Source of the DNA: Hydrogenothermaceae bacterium | Lineage (GTDB): Bacteria; Aquificota; Aquificia; Aquificales; Hydrogenothermaceae | Length of the DNA: 54,864 bases | Direction of reading: 5' to 3' | NCBI GenBank assembly: GCA_015519975.1 | Contig: WIAL01000033.1 | Span: 1 to 54,864 of the forward strand | Shown: one piece after another, positions 1 through 51,990 of the stretch | Layout of the letters: the number at the start of each line of letters is the position of its first letter | Numbering within the stretch: the first letter of the stretch is position 1 | Translations under genes and position numbers: made by a program | Notes under the pieces: model-generated | What the model was told of the DNA's origin: nothing | Databases searched by the model: none | What the model saw: the letters and a program-made list of their open reading frames with translations, nothing else

Positions 1-522
1 AAAGGTAAATATTTTGTTTTTACCTCTAATGTAGACGGGCAGTTTCAAAAAGCAGGATATGATGAAAAAAGAATAGTTGAAATTCACGGAAGCATTCATT
101 TTATGCAGTGTACACTTCCTTGTAGAGATGATATATGGTCTGCAGATGAGATTGAGATAAAAATAGATGAGGAAAATTTTGAAGCCTTAGACCCATTACC
201 AAAATGTAAACACTGCCAAAGAGTGGCTAGACCTAATATACTTATGTTTGGCGACTATGAATGGATACCTGAAAGAACCGAAAAACAGGAATTTTTATTT
301 GAAAGATGGCTTGAAAAAATATCTTATATGGATTACAGGCTTGTCATTATAGAAATTGGAGCCGGTAAGGCAGTCCCAACAGTTAGATGGACATCAGAAA
401 GAATTTCTTCCCATTTTAATGCTCCTTTAATAAGAATTAACCCTAGAAATTATGATGTGCCTGCAGGAGGTATTTCAATACCACTTGGAGGTCTTGAAGG
501 TATAAAAAGGCTTGTTTCGTGA
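1..522 (+). CDS. Sir2-family NAD-dependent protein deacylase (5'-truncated)
   Basis: Open reading frame already open at base 1, so the N-terminal Rossmann part is missing. Seen: TSNVDG (equivalent of the TQNID motif), IHGS with the catalytic His, two zinc Cys pairs (CTLPC and CKHC), RPNILMFGD, and IEIGAGKAVPTVR near the NAD-binding end. Sirtuins remove acyl groups from lysine using NAD. It ends 12 bases before nadD, an NAD biosynthesis gene, so co-transcription is likely. The deacylase assignment is firm at family level; the acyl specificity cannot be read. Confidence 0.85.
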   Translation, partial: KGKYFVFTSNVDGQFQKAGYDEKRIVEIHGSIHFMQCTLPCRDDIWSADEIEIKIDEENFEALDPLPKCKHCQRVARPNILMFGDYEWIPERTEKQEFLFERWLEKISYMDYRLVIIEIGAGKAVPTVRWTSERISSHFNAPLIRINPRNYDVPAGGISIPLGGLEGIKRLVS

Positions 523-5756: not shown

Positions 5757-7877
<2,121 letters not shown>

Positions 7878-31369: not shown

Positions 31370-31561
31370 CTACCCCTCTAACAAGGCTTTTATATATAAA
31401 ACGGAATTTTTCATTTGCCTGATGTCAGTTTGTATTTTTTGTTTTCCTCTTTTCTCTTTTTCCTGATTTCCGTAAGGGTTTTTAACATCATCTATAACTT
31501 TATTGGTTTTCCCTTTTTCCAGCTTTCTAATCCGCTTCTCATAAAGTCTTACATCTGTCAT
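31370..31561 (-). CDS. Small charged protein, 63 aa, unknown
   Basis: Starts at ATG 31561 (TDVRLYEKRIRKLEKGKTNK) with GGAGG upstream; strongly charged, helical, no recognised family. The start is one base beyond the previous gene's stop, so the two are coupled. A TTCCGTTTTATATATA motif lies inside its 3' end and probably serves the next gene. Confidence 0.55.
   Translation of the reverse strand: MTDVRLYEKRIRKLEKGKTNKVIDDVKNPYGNQEKEKRGKQKIQTDIRQMKNSVLYIKALLEG
31391..31406 (-). promoter_or_regulatory. Element promoter-like motif, variant copy
   Basis: Minus-strand TTCCGTTTTATATATA, one change (C for A) from the element consensus, about 22 bases upstream of the start of the 44-aa gene at 31368. 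Confidence 0.5.
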
Positions 31562-32915: not shown

Positions 32916-33416
32916 ATGCAGAATAAAAACAAATTTACAGAATTTGATAAAGATAAACTTTCTAAAAAGTTATTAGAAGAGAAAAAACATAGGAAGGCTA
33001 TCAATAGGCTGTTTTATATTTTAAATAACCAAAAAAACTTTAGTATTAAAATAAAACTTTTAAGCCTTTTTACTATATTTCTTTTTATACCATCATTTGG
33101 AAATGAGCTTGTAGGTAAATGGATTTTTAAATCTATTAAAGGACCTGTCTTTGTTTCTGGAGTTAGTGGATATAAAATACCTGTGAAGTTTAATGAAGAT
33201 GGAACCGTAGAAATGGGGAATTTAAAAATATTTAATTACAAGAAATATTATGAGTTTGATGGAAATACTTTGAAGTTATGGATTGGTAAAAAAAGTAAAA
33301 GGAACTTTTCAACAACTGTATTTAAAATAATCAATTTTGATGGAAACTGTTATAAATTGAAATACATAAAGGCAACCGTTAGAAACAAATACGGTGCTCT
33401 TTTATGTAAAGACTAA
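32916..33416 (+). CDS. Hypothetical exported or anchored protein, 166 aa
   Basis: A charged N-terminal 40 residues precede one hydrophobic span (IKIKLLSLFTIFLFIPSF). A beta-rich domain follows beginning ELVGKWIFKS, with the FNEDGTVEMGN turn typical of lipocalin-like or DUF-type periplasmic domains. No family recognised. No clear SD at the ATG. Opposite in direction to the neighbouring element genes and tail-to-tail with the next (4-base overlap). Confidence 0.5.
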   Translation: MQNKNKFTEFDKDKLSKKLLEEKKHRKAINRLFYILNNQKNFSIKIKLLSLFTIFLFIPSFGNELVGKWIFKSIKGPVFVSGVSGYKIPVKFNEDGTVEMGNLKIFNYKKYYEFDGNTLKLWIGKKSKRNFSTTVFKIINFDGNCYKLKYIKATVRNKYGALLCKD

Positions 33417-33586
33417 GAAAGAACCTTTATTTTATTTTTTTCAAGATTCACATTAAATTCTTTTTTTCCTCTTAACATTCTTTCTAAATCTTCTATTTTT
33501 ACGAGCTCTTCTTTTCCATTTTCTTCCAGAAATACAACTTTTTTGCGATATTTTAGTAAGATTTCAGCTATAATTTTAGGATTCAT
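33413..33586 (-). CDS. Small protein, 57 aa, unknown
   Basis: From ATG 33586 (NPKIIAEILLKYRKKVVFLEE) with GGAGG 7 bases upstream and the TTACGTT-TATATATA motif about 25 bases upstream of that start. Soluble, charged, possibly a small regulatory protein. No family recognised. Confidence 0.6.
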   Translation of the reverse strand: MNPKIIAEILLKYRKKVVFLEENGKEELVKIEDLERMLRGKKEFNVNLEKNKIKVLS

Positions 33587-33610
33587 ATATAAACCTCCAA
33601 AATTTATGTC

Positions 33611-33626
33611 TATATATAAAACGTAA
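33611..33626 (-). promoter_or_regulatory. Element promoter-like motif, consensus copy
   Basis: Minus-strand TTACGTTTTATATATA, with GGAGG about 14 bases after it and the ATG at 33586. It is the fullest copy of the motif. Confidence 0.65.
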
Positions 33627-33638
33627 GAACGGAGTAGG

Positions 33639-33797
33639 TTATACCTTTCTAAGTTCATACATTCTCTTCACTGAATAAAAGATTACAAATAGCAAAAGAC
33701 CTGATACTATTATTGCTGCTATTTGGGAAACTCCTGGAATGAAAGAAATCAGATAAGCTATAAGAACAATTATAAAAAATGCTAATACTTCATTCAC
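33639..33797 (-). CDS. Small membrane protein, 52 aa (GTG start)
   Basis: GTG at 33797 after GGAGG (9-base spacing). The product has two hydrophobic stretches (VLAFFIIVLIAYLISF and AAIIVSGLLLFVIFYSV) and a basic C-terminus (KRMYELRKV). Unrecognised. Another TTACGTT motif copy precedes it. Confidence 0.6.
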   Translation of the reverse strand: MNEVLAFFIIVLIAYLISFIPGVSQIAAIIVSGLLLFVIFYSVKRMYELRKV

Positions 33798-33820
33798 GGC
33801 AAAATTCCTCCAAGCTTATT

Positions 33821-33836
33821 TATGTATAAAACGTAA
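33821..33836 (-). promoter_or_regulatory. Element promoter-like motif
   Basis: Minus-strand TTACGTTTTATACATA, about 24 bases before the GTG at 33797, with GGAGG between. Confidence 0.6.
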
Positions 33837-33860
33837 TTTTTTCAGGAAGCAGTAATAAAA

Positions 33861-33889
33861 GAAAATTAAAAGAAGGGACAAATGTCCCT
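33861..33889 (-). terminator. Intrinsic terminator after the 103-aa membrane protein gene
   Basis: Minus-strand stem AGGGAC / GTCCCT with a 4-base loop, followed by TTCTTTTAATTTTC. It separates the 34208 gene from the 33797 gene, so the latter needs its own promoter, where the motif is found. Confidence 0.6.
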
Positions 33890-33899
33890 AAAAGAAAGG

Positions 33900-34208
33900 C
33901 TAAAAGCGAGACATTTGTGAAATACAAAAATCAAAAGAATCCATCATATCTTCCTGATTTTCTACTTTTTGGTTAAAAGCAAATACTGCACATGGTTTTG
34001 AAATAAACAATAAAGACTGATAGGTTTCACATATCTCTTGAAGTTCTCTTTTTTTACCATAGCCTTTTTGTGATTGCTCAACAGCCCAGCGGTAACATTC
34101 TGTATTTTTACTATTTGTTGATTGTGGTAGATTTTGCAATCTGTGTGAAACCAATACAATAAATAGTAAAAGAAGCCAAAAGGAAATAAATAATTTTGCT
34201 AATTTCAT
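33900..34208 (-). CDS. Signal-anchored small protein with several Cys, 102 aa
   Basis: ATG 34208 preceded by AGGAGGTGTTAGTC. N-terminal membrane segment (LFISFWLLLLFIVLVS), then a 75-residue exposed part with five Cys (ECYRWAVEQSQKGYG, EICETYQ, KPCAVFA, DFCISQ). No family recognised. Its SD and spacer are identical to those of the SWIM gene at 34787, so the two are probably controlled together, possibly by the RNA at 51829. Confidence 0.65.
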   Translation of the reverse strand: MKLAKLFISFWLLLLFIVLVSHRLQNLPQSTNSKNTECYRWAVEQSQKGYGKKRELQEICETYQSLLFISKPCAVFAFNQKVENQEDMMDSFDFCISQMSRF

Positions 34209-34235
34209 GACTAACACCTCCTGTGAAGTAAAAGA

Positions 34236-34787
34236 TTAAAATGAAATAGTTTGATTTTCTAAAGCATGTTTTTTCAGTTCTTCAGTAATTTCTACATACT
34301 CATAGTTAATCTCATCCCAAATTTCTTCCGGAATACAGTCCGATATTCTGTCCATAAATTCAGATAGAGCTTTTAGAGCAGTGCCATTTTCAATGTCAAA
34401 AAGAGTTTCTTCAGACTGGATAAGCATAGAAAAGCCTTTTAATTTTGTATAGTAGCTTCCACCAGTTTTAATAAATTCTGTAGCTCTAAAAGATGAAACA
34501 GCCATAGATAATGCTATTGAGTGCTTGCATAGACATCTGTCCTTGCATGTGCAGTTAGCAGAAAAATTCCCATCAATAATAGAAATAGTAGTGTAGTAAT
34601 AGTCATCATAAGTTTGGGATTTTACCTTTGCAGAAAATACAGCTTTCTTTTCAGAATATACATGTCCATGAATGTAAAAATCCTGACTTTCAAAAATATT
34701 AACTGCCCTTTGATACCTTTTAACATCTCTCTTTAATTTTTTTAGATTTTGAGAGATAAAAGATTTGAAATAATTAAATGTAGCCAT
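34236..34787 (-). CDS. SWIM-type zinc-finger protein
   Basis: 183 residues from ATG 34787 (GGAGG 7-8 bases upstream). The centre holds NFSANCTCKDRCLCKHSIAL, the CxC...CxH SWIM zinc motif found in DNA/RNA-binding or recombination-linked proteins. An N-terminal basic part (KKLKRDVKRYQRAVNIF) precedes it. Target unknown. Preceded by a long structured leader that can hide or expose its ribosome site. Confidence 0.72.
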   Translation of the reverse strand: MATFNYFKSFISQNLKKLKRDVKRYQRAVNIFESQDFYIHGHVYSEKKAVFSAKVKSQTYDDYYYTTISIIDGNFSANCTCKDRCLCKHSIALSMAVSSFRATEFIKTGGSYYTKLKGFSMLIQSEETLFDIENGTALKALSEFMDRISDCIPEEIWDEINYEYVEITEELKKHALENQTISF

Positions 34788-34890
34788 GACTAACACCTCC
34801 GTAAAAGAATTTGCTCCTGTGGAGCTTCCTAAAAACTCCTAAAGCTTTTAGAATGCCCCACAGGAGCTTTGGAAGTGTTAGCCTTTTACT
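34788..34890 (-). promoter_or_regulatory. Two-state structured leader (possible RNA switch) of the SWIM gene
   Basis: On the minus strand a 13-base element (34883-34871, GGCTAACACTTCC) can pair along its whole length, with two G-U pairs, with the SD/spacer GGAGGTGTTAGTC (34800-34788). A 10-bp perfect hairpin (GCTCCTGTGG / CCACAGGAGC) lies inside. A second pairing, GTAAAAG with CTTTTAC (34889-34883 with 34807-34801), crosses the first, so the two exclude each other: one hides the ribosome site, the other frees it. No known riboswitch class recognised. Confidence 0.6.
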
Positions 34891-35011
34891 GAAATTACTG
34901 CTTCTATATGGAAATATTCTTTTGCAAGTAAATTTTGATTAAAATTTATTAAAAGAGATGGTCATTTAAAAGCTTTTTAGACAAGCTAAAAGATTTAGTA
35001 AAAATTATATG

Positions 35012-36082
35012 TTATAACTTTCCTTCACGCAATAATTTCCTAAAATTTTTCATATTTCCATATTTTTTCCTGTAGAAATCATATATACATTTATTTGCGA
35101 GCCTTTTAACTGCTATCATATAACCTTCCTTTTTAGCTACATTCAAAAAAGTTTCTTTATCATAAATATCTTTTTTTAAGTTCTTATTTATTTTCATTCG
35201 CTCCTTTTTTTGTTCCTGTTTTATTCCATTTTGCTTGAAATATCTTGTATCTACGTATTTAAATAATTTTTCGATAAATTTTTCCTTGAACTCCTTGGAA
35301 GACTTACTTTCTGCAATCATTTTATCCATTATCTTTTTAGACAAAAGCCGGGATCTAAGCCAATCACGTACAAATCCTTGAAATGATTTTTTTGCTGAAA
35401 ATTTATCTAATTTTCTTAAAGGAATTTGCTGCTCATATATAGCTAAAATAAACCCTTCAAAATCACTTATTTCTAATCTTTTTTTTAGATATGTTTTTAC
35501 AGCAATTTCTTTTAATTCCTTAATATCTTTTTCCATTACATCCTGTATAGTGAGCCCATACTTTTTCAATCTTTCTTTAATGGATCTGGTTAGAGCATAT
35601 TGCCTTAATTTTTTTAATCCGGAATCTTTTGATGGTGCAGATTTTAAGGTTTTTATTATTATCTCAAGGGTTAATTTTTTCATCTTTCTTCCCGGTCCTT
35701 CTCTATATATTGAAAGAATGTTTTGCTGCAGTTTTTCTTTCCTCTTCCTTTCCATATCGCTTTTTCTGGTAAAAATAGACTTGTAATAATCTTCTCCTAA
35801 ATTATGTTTTATCCATAAGTTTGAATATCCCTTTTCTAAAAATTTTTTTACGAAATATTTCTTTGATAATTTGCAATAAGTCCCTTTGAAAATGGAAATT
35901 AAATCTATATTATTTCTTATAACACCATACCTTTTTGCTTTAAAAATAAAATAATGCTCTACCTTTAAAATCTTTGCTACCTGCCTGCTAGAATATCCTT
36001 TTTTCTTTTTAACTCCTATCCCTATTTTTGCATCAAGTGTAGCAATAATATCGTATATTTTTTGTTTTTCTTCTTTTGTCAT
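35012..36082 (-). CDS. Basic protein with N-terminal HTH-like segment, 356 aa
   Basis: Very Lys-rich, all-helical. Residues about 28-50 (GYSSRQVAKILKVEHYFIFK) resemble a helix-turn-helix. No catalytic motif or membrane segment found. Probably nucleic-acid binding. It has its own TTACGTT motif but only a weak ribosome site (AAGTGG). It lies 26 bases downstream of the secreted-protein gene and may also be read from that operon. Confidence 0.6.
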   Translation of the reverse strand: MTKEEKQKIYDIIATLDAKIGIGVKKKKGYSSRQVAKILKVEHYFIFKAKRYGVIRNNIDLISIFKGTYCKLSKKYFVKKFLEKGYSNLWIKHNLGEDYYKSIFTRKSDMERKRKEKLQQNILSIYREGPGRKMKKLTLEIIIKTLKSAPSKDSGLKKLRQYALTRSIKERLKKYGLTIQDVMEKDIKELKEIAVKTYLKKRLEISDFEGFILAIYEQQIPLRKLDKFSAKKSFQGFVRDWLRSRLLSKKIMDKMIAESKSSKEFKEKFIEKLFKYVDTRYFKQNGIKQEQKKERMKINKNLKKDIYDKETFLNVAKKEGYMIAVKRLANKCIYDFYRKKYGNMKNFRKLLREGKL

Positions 36083-36100: not shown

Positions 36101-36118
36101 TTATATAATTAACGTAAT
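36101..36118 (-). promoter_or_regulatory. Element promoter-like motif, spaced variant
   Basis: Minus-strand TTACGTTAATTATATAA, with two extra bases between CGTT and TATATA, 19 bases before the ATG at 36082. It overlaps the stop region of the gene at 36109. Confidence 0.5.
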
Positions 36119-39356: not shown

Positions 39357-39863
39357 TTACCCCCTTACAGGAAACTCTATCTTTGGTTTTCCTTCTTCAT
39401 CTATAAAAAGAATTGCCTCAAATGTTTTACCTGCTTTAGATTTAAAATCTTTTATAGGAACTTTATCCCCTTGAAGGACATATACAGCTATATCTCTTGT
39501 AATTGTTTTTGAATACATCTTTTTATAGACAAATGCTTTACAGGAAGAACAGAAGTAAGTTTTTTGGCTTTCTCTTATTATTCCTCCGCATTTACATTTA
39601 TCCACATTAATAGCTTCTTTTATCTTATCTTCATCAAATATAAGTTCTAATTTTTCATTAAGCTTTACACCAGATGAAAATTTTTTACCTGATTTTCTTG
39701 AGACAAGACCATCAACATAAATGGTTAAACCCTGAAAAAGATAATCAATTTCGCTTTCTTTGAACTTCCTTCCAAAAAACTCCTTCCATACTTTCTTTTT
39801 ACATCCTGAGCATTCATAAAAATTTTCTTTTTCAATAATTTCAGAGCCGCATTTGCATTCCAT
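39357..39863 (-). CDS. Stand-alone topoisomerase C-terminal repeat protein
   Basis: 168 residues from ATG 39863 (GGAGG upstream). Two repeats, each with two Cys pairs in zinc-ribbon style (CKCGSEI ... CSGCKK; CKCGGI ... CSSCKA) followed by a block ending in KSGKKFSSGVKL or KAGKTFEAILFI. This is the pattern of the Toprim_Crpt repeat found at the C-terminus of type IA topoisomerases. No catalytic topoisomerase part is present. First gene of the operon, directly behind a motif copy. Confidence 0.72.
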   Translation of the reverse strand: MECKCGSEIIEKENFYECSGCKKKVWKEFFGRKFKESEIDYLFQGLTIYVDGLVSRKSGKKFSSGVKLNEKLELIFDEDKIKEAINVDKCKCGGIIRESQKTYFCSSCKAFVYKKMYSKTITRDIAVYVLQGDKVPIKDFKSKAGKTFEAILFIDEEGKPKIEFPVRG

Positions 39864-39890
39864 AATATTTTCCTCCAATCTTTTTTCTAA

Positions 39891-39903
39891 TATATAAACG
39901 TAA
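39891..39903 (-). promoter_or_regulatory. Element promoter-like motif driving the subtilisin operon
   Basis: Minus-strand TTACGTTTATATA, then GGAGG about 14 bases further and the ATG at 39863. Confidence 0.65.
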
Positions 39904-39932
39904 GGATTGGAAGGATTGATATTATTTGATTT

Positions 39933-42571: not shown

Positions 42572-42598
42572 TTTCTTCCTCCTGGATGTTTTTATAAC

Positions 42599-42610
42599 TA
42601 TAAAACGTAA
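42599..42610 (-). promoter_or_regulatory. Element promoter-like motif
   Basis: Minus-strand TTACGTTTTATA, followed by GTTATAAAA, then AGGAGG and the ATG at 42571. Confidence 0.6.
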
Positions 42611-44450: not shown

Positions 44451-44675
44451 ATGACCATAATACATGAAAAAATAAGCGTAGTATATAAAAATAATACAAA
44501 ATCAACAAAATATCAATGTCTTTTCCTTTGTGCCTCCTTCTGGGTGAAGGAGGTATATTCATGTATAAGTATATACTTTCATGCTTGCATTCTGAATGGG
44601 GTTCGCTTTTTTTCGAGTATGAAAAATGGTTCAATTCGAAAACGACGGAGGAAGCTGTTGAAATCATCATTTTGA
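44451..44675 (+). CDS. Possible leader ORF of the replication operon
   Basis: 74 codons starting 8 bases after the looped AAGGAG (MTIIHEKISVVYKNN...). It overlaps the next gene by 115 bases in another frame and has no family. Its translation would run through the hairpin at 44533-44553 and could free that gene's ribosome site, like leader peptides in plasmid copy-number control. The C-terminal half is probably without function of its own. Confidence 0.45.
   Translation: MTIIHEKISVVYKNNTKSTKYQCLFLCASFWVKEVYSCISIYFHACILNGVRFFSSMKNGSIRKRRRKLLKSSF
44533..44553 (+). promoter_or_regulatory. SD-sequestering hairpin
   Basis: CCTCCTTC, loop TGGGT, GAAGGAGG: an 8-bp perfect stem that buries the only strong ribosome site of the gene at 44561 (7 bases from its ATG). 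Confidence 0.75.
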
Positions 44676-45211: not shown

Positions 45212-45228
45212 TTGGGAGGTGAGGGGTG

Positions 45229-46497
45229 ATGATATCCAAAGAAGAAATGATTGCAGAGATAGAAAAAGAGTACAGGAGAAGGAAAAAAAGTGCAAAAACA
45301 AATGAAGAACGAAAGAGAATACGAGAAATAAGAAACGAGGCAATATCGCTTGTTTCATCCCCAAATTTTGCGGATTTTGCAAAAAATGAAATACTCAGGG
45401 CAGTGATGGGTCGCATTGAGAAAAATGAAAATACAGAAAAATTTTATAAATCCTATAATAAAAACAAAACACAACTCCCTATCCTCCACATAATATCCAG
45501 GAACAATCCATATCTATTGACCCCCGAAATATTACAAAAAAACGATGAATTTAAAATAAACTCATACTGGAGCAGTTTTATTCTTCAAGCAACTGAAGAT
45601 GTAGAAATTTTTGAACCTTACGATATTAAAAACTTACTTGCTATTTTATCTGTAAAGTCAGCATATATAGAACACTTAAAAAAAGAAAAATTATCAGATG
45701 AGGAAATATTAAAAATTTTAGTAATTAATGGATTTATCATTCCTTTACCTATGGTTGCTGAAATTAGGGAAATTTCAAAGAGAAAAGAAAACTATCAAAG
45801 AATTATAAACAGTATAGACAAAGCTCAGAAAATACAAATTAAAGGTAAATTATCTGTCGATATAAAAGGAGAACCTTTAGAAGTTAAAAAAGCATTTTCT
45901 TTTATTAGTGAATACGAAGAAATTACTTACAAGAATAAAAAAGCTTTGAATATTAAACTATCTCCCACAGTAGCGAGATTACTAATTGAAAAAAAAGGCA
46001 GATATTACAATAGAAAATTAATCAATAATATTCCGGATAATCTTTTACCTCTTTACTTTACATTAGACAATTTCAGACTTAATCAAAACATAAAAGAAAA
46101 AATAATAAGTAAGAAAGCCCTTATAGAAAATTCGAGACTCATATACGGAAAAACAGCAAAAGAAAGACCGGACAAGGTAGAAAAATATCTTATAGAAAAA
46201 ATAAACAAACTCAAAAATGGAATAGCTATCGATAAAAATACCAAAATTAAAATGATAAAAGATTGGGAAGAAGTAGAAATGTATAATGGAGAAAAAGGGA
46301 TAAAGATAATATATGAGTCCAAAACCCTACACTCTGAATCCGAAAACCCTACACTCTCAATCCGAAAACCCTACACTGCCAATCCAAAAACCCTACACTC
46401 TCAATCCAAAAATGCACTTCTAACTCTTGAAAATCAACGATTTCATTTAGTCTTAATATTCTTAATAGCCTTAAGGCTATTATTCAGGTCTTTTTGA
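45229..46497 (+). CDS. Putative replication initiator (Rep-like) carrying iterons in its 3' end
   Basis: About 422 residues; start ATG 45229 with GGGAGG 9 bases upstream (a GTG one codon earlier is possible). N-terminal part is charged and helical; residues about 190-365 contain two segments (FSFISEYEEITYKNKKALNIKLS and VEKYLIEKINKLKNGIAIDK) that look like paired winged helices, as in iteron-binding Rep proteins, by appearance only. The C-terminal ~45 residues are encoded by the iterons and look like a by-product. Confidence 0.55.
   Translation: MISKEEMIAEIEKEYRRRKKSAKTNEERKRIREIRNEAISLVSSPNFADFAKNEILRAVMGRIEKNENTEKFYKSYNKNKTQLPILHIISRNNPYLLTPEILQKNDEFKINSYWSSFILQATEDVEIFEPYDIKNLLAILSVKSAYIEHLKKEKLSDEEILKILVINGFIIPLPMVAEIREISKRKENYQRIINSIDKAQKIQIKGKLSVDIKGEPLEVKKAFSFISEYEEITYKNKKALNIKLSPTVARLLIEKKGRYYNRKLINNIPDNLLPLYFTLDNFRLNQNIKEKIISKKALIENSRLIYGKTAKERPDKVEKYLIEKINKLKNGIAIDKNTKIKMIKDWEEVEMYNGEKGIKIIYESKTLHSESENPTLSIRKPYTANPKTLHSQSKNALLTLENQRFHLVLIFLIALRLLFRSF
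46321..46408 (+). repeat. Four 22-bp iterons (likely replication origin)
   Basis: AAAACCCTACACTCT recurs at 46321, 46343, 46365 (ending GC for CT) and 46387, exactly 22 bases apart, followed each time by SAATCC-type spacer. A degenerate fifth unit begins at 46409. Exact two-turn spacing of direct repeats next to a Rep-like gene is the hallmark of an iteron origin. All lie within the coding frame. Confidence 0.85.
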
Positions 46498-50627: not shown

Positions 50628-50645
50628 TTACGTTATATATGTATA
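50628..50645 (+). promoter_or_regulatory. Element promoter-like motif before the sliding clamp gene
   Basis: TTACGTTATATATGTATA on the plus strand, then GGAGG about 13 bases on and the ATG at 50672. Confidence 0.65.
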
Positions 50646-51810: not shown

Positions 51811-51826
51811 TTACGTTATATATATA
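51811..51826 (+). promoter_or_regulatory. Element promoter-like motif before the anti-SD RNA
   Basis: TTACGTTATATATATA, beginning 5 bases after the clamp stop, with no gene but a terminator behind it. Confidence 0.6.
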
Positions 51827-51828
51827 GA

Positions 51829-51903
51829 ACGTTGGCCTTCATAGGAAACACCTCCTCTCCCCTAACCTCCCTTTGACAGGGTGCAACGCCCTGTCCTTTT
51901 TAT
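51829..51903 (+). ncRNA. Predicted ~75-nt small RNA with 16S-like anti-SD sequence
   Basis: Bounded by the motif at 51811-51826 and the terminator at 51875. Its unstructured middle holds AACACCTCCTC (51847-51857) and CCTCCC (51866-51871). CACCTCCT equals the anti-Shine-Dalgarno core of 16S rRNA. The AACACCTCCT stretch is complementary over 10 bases to the ribosome site of the gene at 34208 and over 9 to that at 34787. No open frame with a start is present. Predicted, not shown to be transcribed. Confidence 0.5.
51875..51903 (+). terminator. Intrinsic terminator
   Basis: GACAGGG / CCCTGTC with a 7-base loop, followed by CTTTTTATT. Serves the clamp gene and/or the predicted small RNA. Confidence 0.85.
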
Positions 51904-51990
51904 TAAAAATTAACTGCTTCTACACTATTGGAAAAAAAAGAATCTATGTATATACTTATATATACAAATTCAAATTTAGGAGTTTGGCAT

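Follow-up and report, generated by a model that had tools for sequence, protein, structure and literature searches.

An unusually strong leader that hides the ribosome-binding site of a SWIM-like gene on probable mobile-element cargo in a Hydrogenothermaceae bacterium

How is a gene translated when its ribosome-binding site (RBS) forms one arm of a long hairpin, and does such a leader act as a switch? The question is raised by a locus on contig WIAL01000033.1 of a Hydrogenothermaceae bacterium (assembly GCA_015519975.1), of which positions 1 to 54,864 were analysed (54,864 nucleotides, hereafter the window). The gene behind the leader (34236-34787, minus strand) encodes a 183-residue protein with a weak match to the SWIM zinc finger (Pfam PF04434; E-value 0.0089, 16 bits, hence below the cut-off of 19.6). 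Its CxC...CxH core aligns with three distant proteins, and the usable relatives show 22-25% identity. PADLOC gave one weak match (PDC-S62, E-value 3e-4, 17 bits). The second gene of the cassette (33900-34208, minus strand) encodes 102 residues with a hydrophobic N-terminus and matches no known family above cut-off; an intrinsic terminator-like hairpin (33874-33889, minus strand) lies at the cassette end.

On the minus strand the order from 34889 to 34785 is GTAAAAGGCTAACACTTCC-AAA-inner hairpin-AAATTCTTTTAC-GGAGGTGTTAGTC-ATG. The initial annotation had described a 13-base upstream element fully complementary to the Shine-Dalgarno (SD) sequence and spacer, and this is what we find: the 5' arm GGCTAACACTTCC (34883-34871, minus strand) forms 13 base pairs, exactly two of them G-U, with the 3' arm GGAGGTGTTAGTC (34800-34788, minus strand), which comprises the SD GGAGG (34800-34796) and the spacer and adjoins the ATG. 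We refer to this outer helix as helix A. The perfect 10-bp hairpin said to be enclosed by it is present, but it is the base of a longer one consisting of 13 bp, an A.A mismatch and 12 bp. Specifically, the inner stem pairs GCTCCTGTGGGGC (34867-34855) with GCTCCACAGGAGC (34825-34813), and beyond the mismatch the apical stem (34827-34853, minus strand) pairs 34853-34842 with 34838-34827 around a 3-nt loop, giving 38 pairs in total (13 outer, 13 inner and 12 apical). The minimum free energy (MFE) of the leader is -57.9 kcal/mol compared to -26.3 +/- 3.5 kcal/mol for 200 dinucleotide shuffles (z = -9.1), none of which was as stable, and the leader has the lowest MFE among 5,474 segments of 130 nt covering both strands of the window, the tRNA cluster being less stable. 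When the upstream 120 nt were shuffled 4,000 times, a run of 13 pairs with the SD and spacer, irrespective of the number of G-U pairs, arose in six cases. The presence of an SD-hiding leader is confirmed, and it is stronger than first described.

In the folding model the probability that an SD base is unpaired does not exceed 0.003 at 37°C or 0.022 at 70°C, and even at 80°C it reaches no more than 0.051. Opening the RBS of the SWIM gene costs 18.6 kcal/mol, which is the highest value among the 56 starts in the window (median 4.8) and the third highest among 402 gene starts (mean 5.6, SD 2.9) sampled from 391 kb of this genome plus the window. Two of the 402 genes, on L074 and L091, are costlier to open (at the L091 start a terminator-like hairpin overlaps the RBS), and a buried SD is therefore not unique to the SWIM leader. 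With the 5' end of the transcript at 34883 or farther upstream the cost is 17.5-18.7 kcal/mol, with 18.7 kcal/mol for 34883 itself, and it is 6.7 kcal/mol from 34870, such that the value without the 5' arm (approximately 7 kcal/mol) is close to the mean of the 402 starts; at 70°C the corresponding change is from 8.4 to 1.4 kcal/mol. Since the opening cost collapses without 34883-34871, the predicted lock resides in the 13-base 5' arm. The leader hence has the pairing of the SD with an upstream arm and, as computed, the dependence on that arm that mark an RBS-sequestering leader. Reverse gyrase is present above its family cut-off in the host genome, split over two contig ends; judged from this gene the host is probably a thermophile, and the figures for 70°C are probably the relevant ones. 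An RNA thermometer was rejected because the SD is not released in the model at 70 or 80°C, the growth temperature being inferred from the reverse gyrase.

The pairing, its strength, its strand bias (see below), its placement relative to the SD and the ATG, and the computed dependence of the lock on the 5' arm are all demonstrated features of this leader. We consider it reasonably probable (roughly 0.6) that the leader is a cis-acting lock, in which the SD and spacer are buried so that the SWIM gene is poorly translated by default while the second gene is accessible; the leader would thus probably be an off-by-default translation lock, of a general type already known. In transcripts containing 34883-34871 the SD and spacer would be buried in the 13-bp helix that encloses the long inner hairpin, and translation of the SWIM gene in the cell would be lowered. 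The lock would most likely open through loss of the 5' arm, with a productive transcript that starts downstream of it or with a cut in the RNA there, and read-through transcripts from the upstream genes of the element would then be silent. Alternatively, a protein or another RNA might capture the 5' arm. A search of 33350-35300 for sigma-70-like promoters found no minus-strand site at the leader, upstream of it or between its arms; on the opposite strand there is one weak consensus promoter (34720-34748), and promoter-like sites in the region number 5 compared to 10.3 in shuffles. A leader peptide with translational coupling was also considered and rejected, given that, by eye, no ATG-started frame runs across the 5' arm and that a GTG frame of 10 codons within the inner hairpin has no SD.

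The RBS of the second gene (34206-34235, minus strand) consists of TCTTTTAC (34235-34228) and the 16-mer GGAGGTGTTAGTCATG (34221-34206). The genome has just two exact copies of the 16-mer, one in front of each cassette gene, and TCTTTTAC likewise precedes both genes, with six extra bases between TCTTTTAC and GGAGGTGTTAGTCATG at the second. No significant hairpin was detected at the RBS of the second gene (z = -0.8), and its opening cost is 7.9 kcal/mol. According to the folding model, two nearly identical RBS modules on one mRNA would differ in access, the first being shut, while the second, with its identical SD and start context and no such hairpin, would stay open. Separately, the 16-mer occurs exactly in seven viral contigs, each time before an open frame, and by eye these genes look unrelated; in two of the seven (L031 approximately 7237-7252, plus strand; L036 approximately 381-396, minus strand) it lies in an inverted repeat of, by eye, 14 and 9 bp, respectively. 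The pattern of the inner arms gave two viral matches (L037 and L038), viewed as short flanks.

Does the inverted repeat operate as RNA or as DNA? On the minus strand the three helices contain 32 Watson-Crick pairs, six G-U pairs and no C-A pair, the A.A between two of the helices being the sole other mismatch there. For an inverted repeat kept as DNA, C-A and G-U should fall on either strand, and the one-sided G-U therefore speaks for RNA; the chance that all six non-Watson-Crick pairs are G-U on the coding strand is 1/64, considering orientation alone. The fold of the plus strand is weaker (-39.4 kcal/mol, z = -5.5, versus -57.9 kcal/mol on the coding strand), and with DNA parameters the coding strand gives -26.3 and the other strand -21.1 kcal/mol. 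For this single sequence, the one-sided G-U pairs and the better fold of the coding strand are modest evidence that suggests selection on the mRNA. It is unlikely that the locus is instead a DNA-level element, in which two GCTCC-N3-GGAGC dyads (34813-34825 and 34855-34867, 42 bp from centre to centre) serve as operators for a repressor, perhaps the SWIM protein, with the RNA fold as a by-product. Both inner arms are indeed palindromic in themselves, and with at most one mismatch the dyad pattern occurs four times in the window compared to 0.19 expected, two of the four being the leader sites. However, an exact match exists at only one other position in the genome, so no regulon is visible, and operator dyads leave the outer helix, the apical helix and the one-sided G-U pairs unexplained.

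We also regard it as improbable that the leader is primarily a transcription terminator, or a barrier to read-through from the upstream genes of the element, with the SD pairing secondary. The 3' part of the inner hairpin, where GCTCCACAGGAGC also forms a local 5-bp hairpin followed by AAATTCTTTT, scores terminator-like, and the same scan gave no other terminator between the end of the upstream gene (35012) and the leader. Yet three A residues separate the stem from the U-tract, the stem far exceeds the usual length, and an outer helix that is superfluous for termination matches the SD and spacer exactly.

The leader had initially been described as having two states, based on a second 7-base pairing. 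This helix B is present: GTAAAAG (34889-34883, minus strand) pairs with CTTTTAC (34807-34801, minus strand) directly before the SD, and it crosses helix A, base 34883 being common to both. A Watson-Crick run of at least seven at this place was seen in 3.7% of 20,000 shuffles and is thus only marginally beyond chance. Imposing helix B carries a penalty of 11.1 kcal/mol at 37°C, which falls to 7.3 kcal/mol at 70°C. When the transcript is folded stepwise, helix B is best at 37°C only with the transcript end at 34801-34794, with helix A taking over from 34793, and at 70°C it is never best; moreover, helix B leaves the SD uncovered. Helix B may be a passing intermediate, and in the model it does not compete as a stable state unless a partner supports it. 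A true switch, with helix B as the ON state, helix A as the OFF state and a ligand, a protein or a trans RNA choosing between them, accords with the crossing of the two helices, with helix B being the first to form at 37°C and with the recurrence of its partner TCTTTTAC before the second gene. It is nevertheless very unlikely considering the cost of helix B, its absence from stepwise folding at 70°C, its frequency in shuffles and the result, given below, that the small RNA leaves helix A closed; furthermore, Rfam 15 at gathering scores identified five tRNAs only in the window and no riboswitch. Accordingly, of the two-state description the hiding of the SD is supported but the balanced switch is not, and the riboswitch logic lacks both a family at the Rfam gathering score and an alternative fold of comparable stability.

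The trans RNA proposed as an opener is a putative small RNA (51828-51904, plus strand) between the DNA-clamp gene and mazEF. It has a terminator and two anti-SD stretches rich in C, and directly upstream of it lies the promoter-like motif TTACGTTATATATATA. Co-folding keeps the 13-bp helix A closed, contrary to the suggestion that this RNA opens the leader. It was also thought to compete for the same SD, and it does have anti-SD sense. However, its stretch ACACCTCC runs in the sense of the blocking arm itself and, by occupying the SD, could therefore only add to the repression, and by duplex energy the SWIM gene ranks only 16th among the 402 genes. The best site in that sample belongs to the gene at 45226-45229 (-27.8 to -28.6 kcal/mol); when all genes are considered, 32 of 300 shuffled RNAs reach a pairing this strong, which is consequently not significant. 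By eye, CCCCTAACCTCCC in the small RNA is complementary to the ribosome site of the 45226 gene at 12 of 13 bases. Hence neither the riboswitch nor the trans RNA of the first reading finds support.

An integron-type (attC-like) recombination hairpin, or another mobile-element end abutting the ATG by chance, is hardly credible: the length of 96 bp, the leader ends GGCTAAC and GTTAGTC (each matching six of seven positions of the attC R-box consensus) and the recurrence of GTTAGTC before the second gene would fit, but no integron integrase (TIGR02249) scores over the cut-off in the genome, the outer helix is an unbroken 13 bp while attC sites have unpaired spacers, the second gene has no significant hairpin before it, and the leader is single-copy in the genome. 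A MITE was rejected as well, with no second copy in the genome and, by eye, no target duplication.

Relatives of the leader were sought in several collections. The outer-helix pattern gave no stretch in a collection of genome contigs and the short-loop pattern none in viral contigs; when 136 genomes of the phylum were searched at the DNA level, 10 genomes gave matches, which besides the window itself spanned only 18-38 bases, and distant blastn against plasmids and phages returned none. As no homologous leader was found, covariation could not back the pairs. Similarly, the SWIM protein has no close homolog in genome contigs, viral contigs, plasmids or phages, and its weak matches in five of 135 other genomes of the phylum lie mainly around the SWIM core. 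Folds upstream of three of these five (those on L016 and L018 being left out) include no comparable leader, and the z of -3.5 upstream of the match on L029 stems from an adjoining tRNA-like stretch. For the second gene no homolog was found in viral contigs, and a single weak match, which contains a stop, came from the other 135 phylum genomes.

The cassette lies in an element with a large serine recombinase, the 3' end of which overlaps a tRNA-Met gene; the element also carries genes for a primase-helicase, a DNA clamp, MazE/MazF, a Fic protein, a subtilase and a TraI_2/HD protein. The neighbour gene (35012-36082) is present in four of 60 relatives, and at two of these loci (L024 and L025) the recombinase is present as well (92-95% identity). 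In all four, the slot beside the neighbour gene holds, in place of the SWIM cassette, a frame of 374 residues that by eye encodes an AAA-type ATPase and runs opposite to the neighbour gene (L024:8285-9409, L025:7947-9071, L026:188-1312 and L023:657-1781). Judging from this exchange the SWIM cassette is probably cargo that can be swapped, and this would account for the absence of homologs. As a separate observation, tandem 22-nt repeats, AAAACCCTACACTCTCAATCCG, with at least four units (46321-46430, plus strand), lie within a 423-residue frame (45226-46497) just before the primase-helicase gene; these could be replication iterons.

A promoter-like motif, TTACGTTWTATATATA, recurs shortly before ribosome sites of element genes and before the putative small RNA. 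It is found on the minus strand at 31391-31406, 33611-33626, 33821-33836, 36102-36117 and 42595-42610, on the plus strand at 50628-50643 and 51811-51826, and, likewise on the plus strand, in another contig of the same genome (C3) at 2775 and 4685, while related elements have TTCCGTTTTATATATA at comparable positions. The motif may represent the element's own class of promoter or operator. With up to two mismatches genome-wide, a backward-read control pattern has 42 matches compared to 19 for the motif, and thus only close matches matter; these cluster in this element.

Two further starts bear on read-through. At the zinc-ribbon/Toprim_Crpt gene starting at 39863 (39863-39930, minus strand), a promoter-like TTACGTTTATATATTAGA copy of the motif is preceded by a complement of the SD, and the predicted opening cost is 14-15 kcal/mol in a long transcript and 2.7-3.6 kcal/mol from or after the motif. 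In the model this gene looks like a lock on read-through transcripts and displays the read-through logic more plainly than the SWIM gene. At the gene starting at 44561, a local hairpin, GTGCCTCCTTC/GAAGGAGGTAT, covers the SD (44520-44563, plus strand), with an opening cost of 16.8 kcal/mol. Starts that cost at least 14 kcal/mol number three of 37 in the element and four of 365 outside it (p = 0.02, with a threshold picked after seeing the data), and the whole distribution of opening costs is not shifted in the element (p = 0.46). The enrichment of buried starts is therefore weak and post hoc; it suggests, but does not show, protection against read-through. Tentatively, and with little probability, the element might insulate its genes by RBS complements placed upstream of their own starts (39863, 34787 and perhaps 44561), such that they are silent in long transcripts and open from their own promoters; the SWIM 5' arm, once released by a cut, might in addition bind the second gene's ribosome site, which is identical, and so set the ratio of the two proteins.

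Taken together, this is a real and unusually strong RBS-hiding leader on mobile-element cargo in a probable thermophile, of a general kind already known. With 38 pairs hiding the SD at 70°C by calculation it would be an unusually strong translation lock and, if the lock is true, a compact case for the silencing of accessory genes on mobile elements of thermophiles, while two or three genes of this one element offer a test of the read-through-lock idea. Being one orphan leader without homologs, its wider weight is limited. A search of the literature on SWIM leaders, integrative conjugative elements, read-through locks and type I toxins gave nothing on this leader.

Like translational riboswitches, the SWIM leader occludes the SD from within the 5' leader, but it differs in having no Rfam match, no balanced alternative fold and no conserved relative. 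With integron attC hairpins it shares a long imperfect hairpin between genes near the RBS, from which it is set apart by its single copy, its lack of unpaired central spacers and a genome with no integrase over the cut-off. In IS10/IS50-type read-through locks a complement of the RBS lies upstream, and transcripts entering from outside are silenced. The SWIM leader also has its RBS complement upstream and transcripts from outside would be silenced; however, no sigma-70-like promoter was recognised between its arms, and the gene at 39863 fits this type better. No passage on an IS10/IS50-type read-through lock was found in PMC5006887. Finally, passages on type I toxin mRNAs describe tisB as RBS-sequestered (PMC7708055), aapA3 as having metastable hairpins that hide the SD (PMC6733600) and timP as adopting mutually exclusive conformations (PMC11228461), and according to these passages an upstream element pairs with the SD and the primary transcript is inactive, as would be the case for the SWIM leader. 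No antisense partner was found for the SWIM leader, where the opposite strand offers only the weak consensus promoter at 34720-34748, and the product of the SWIM locus, in contrast, is a putative zinc-finger protein of 183 residues with a SWIM-like core rather than a small toxic peptide or short hydrophobic toxin.
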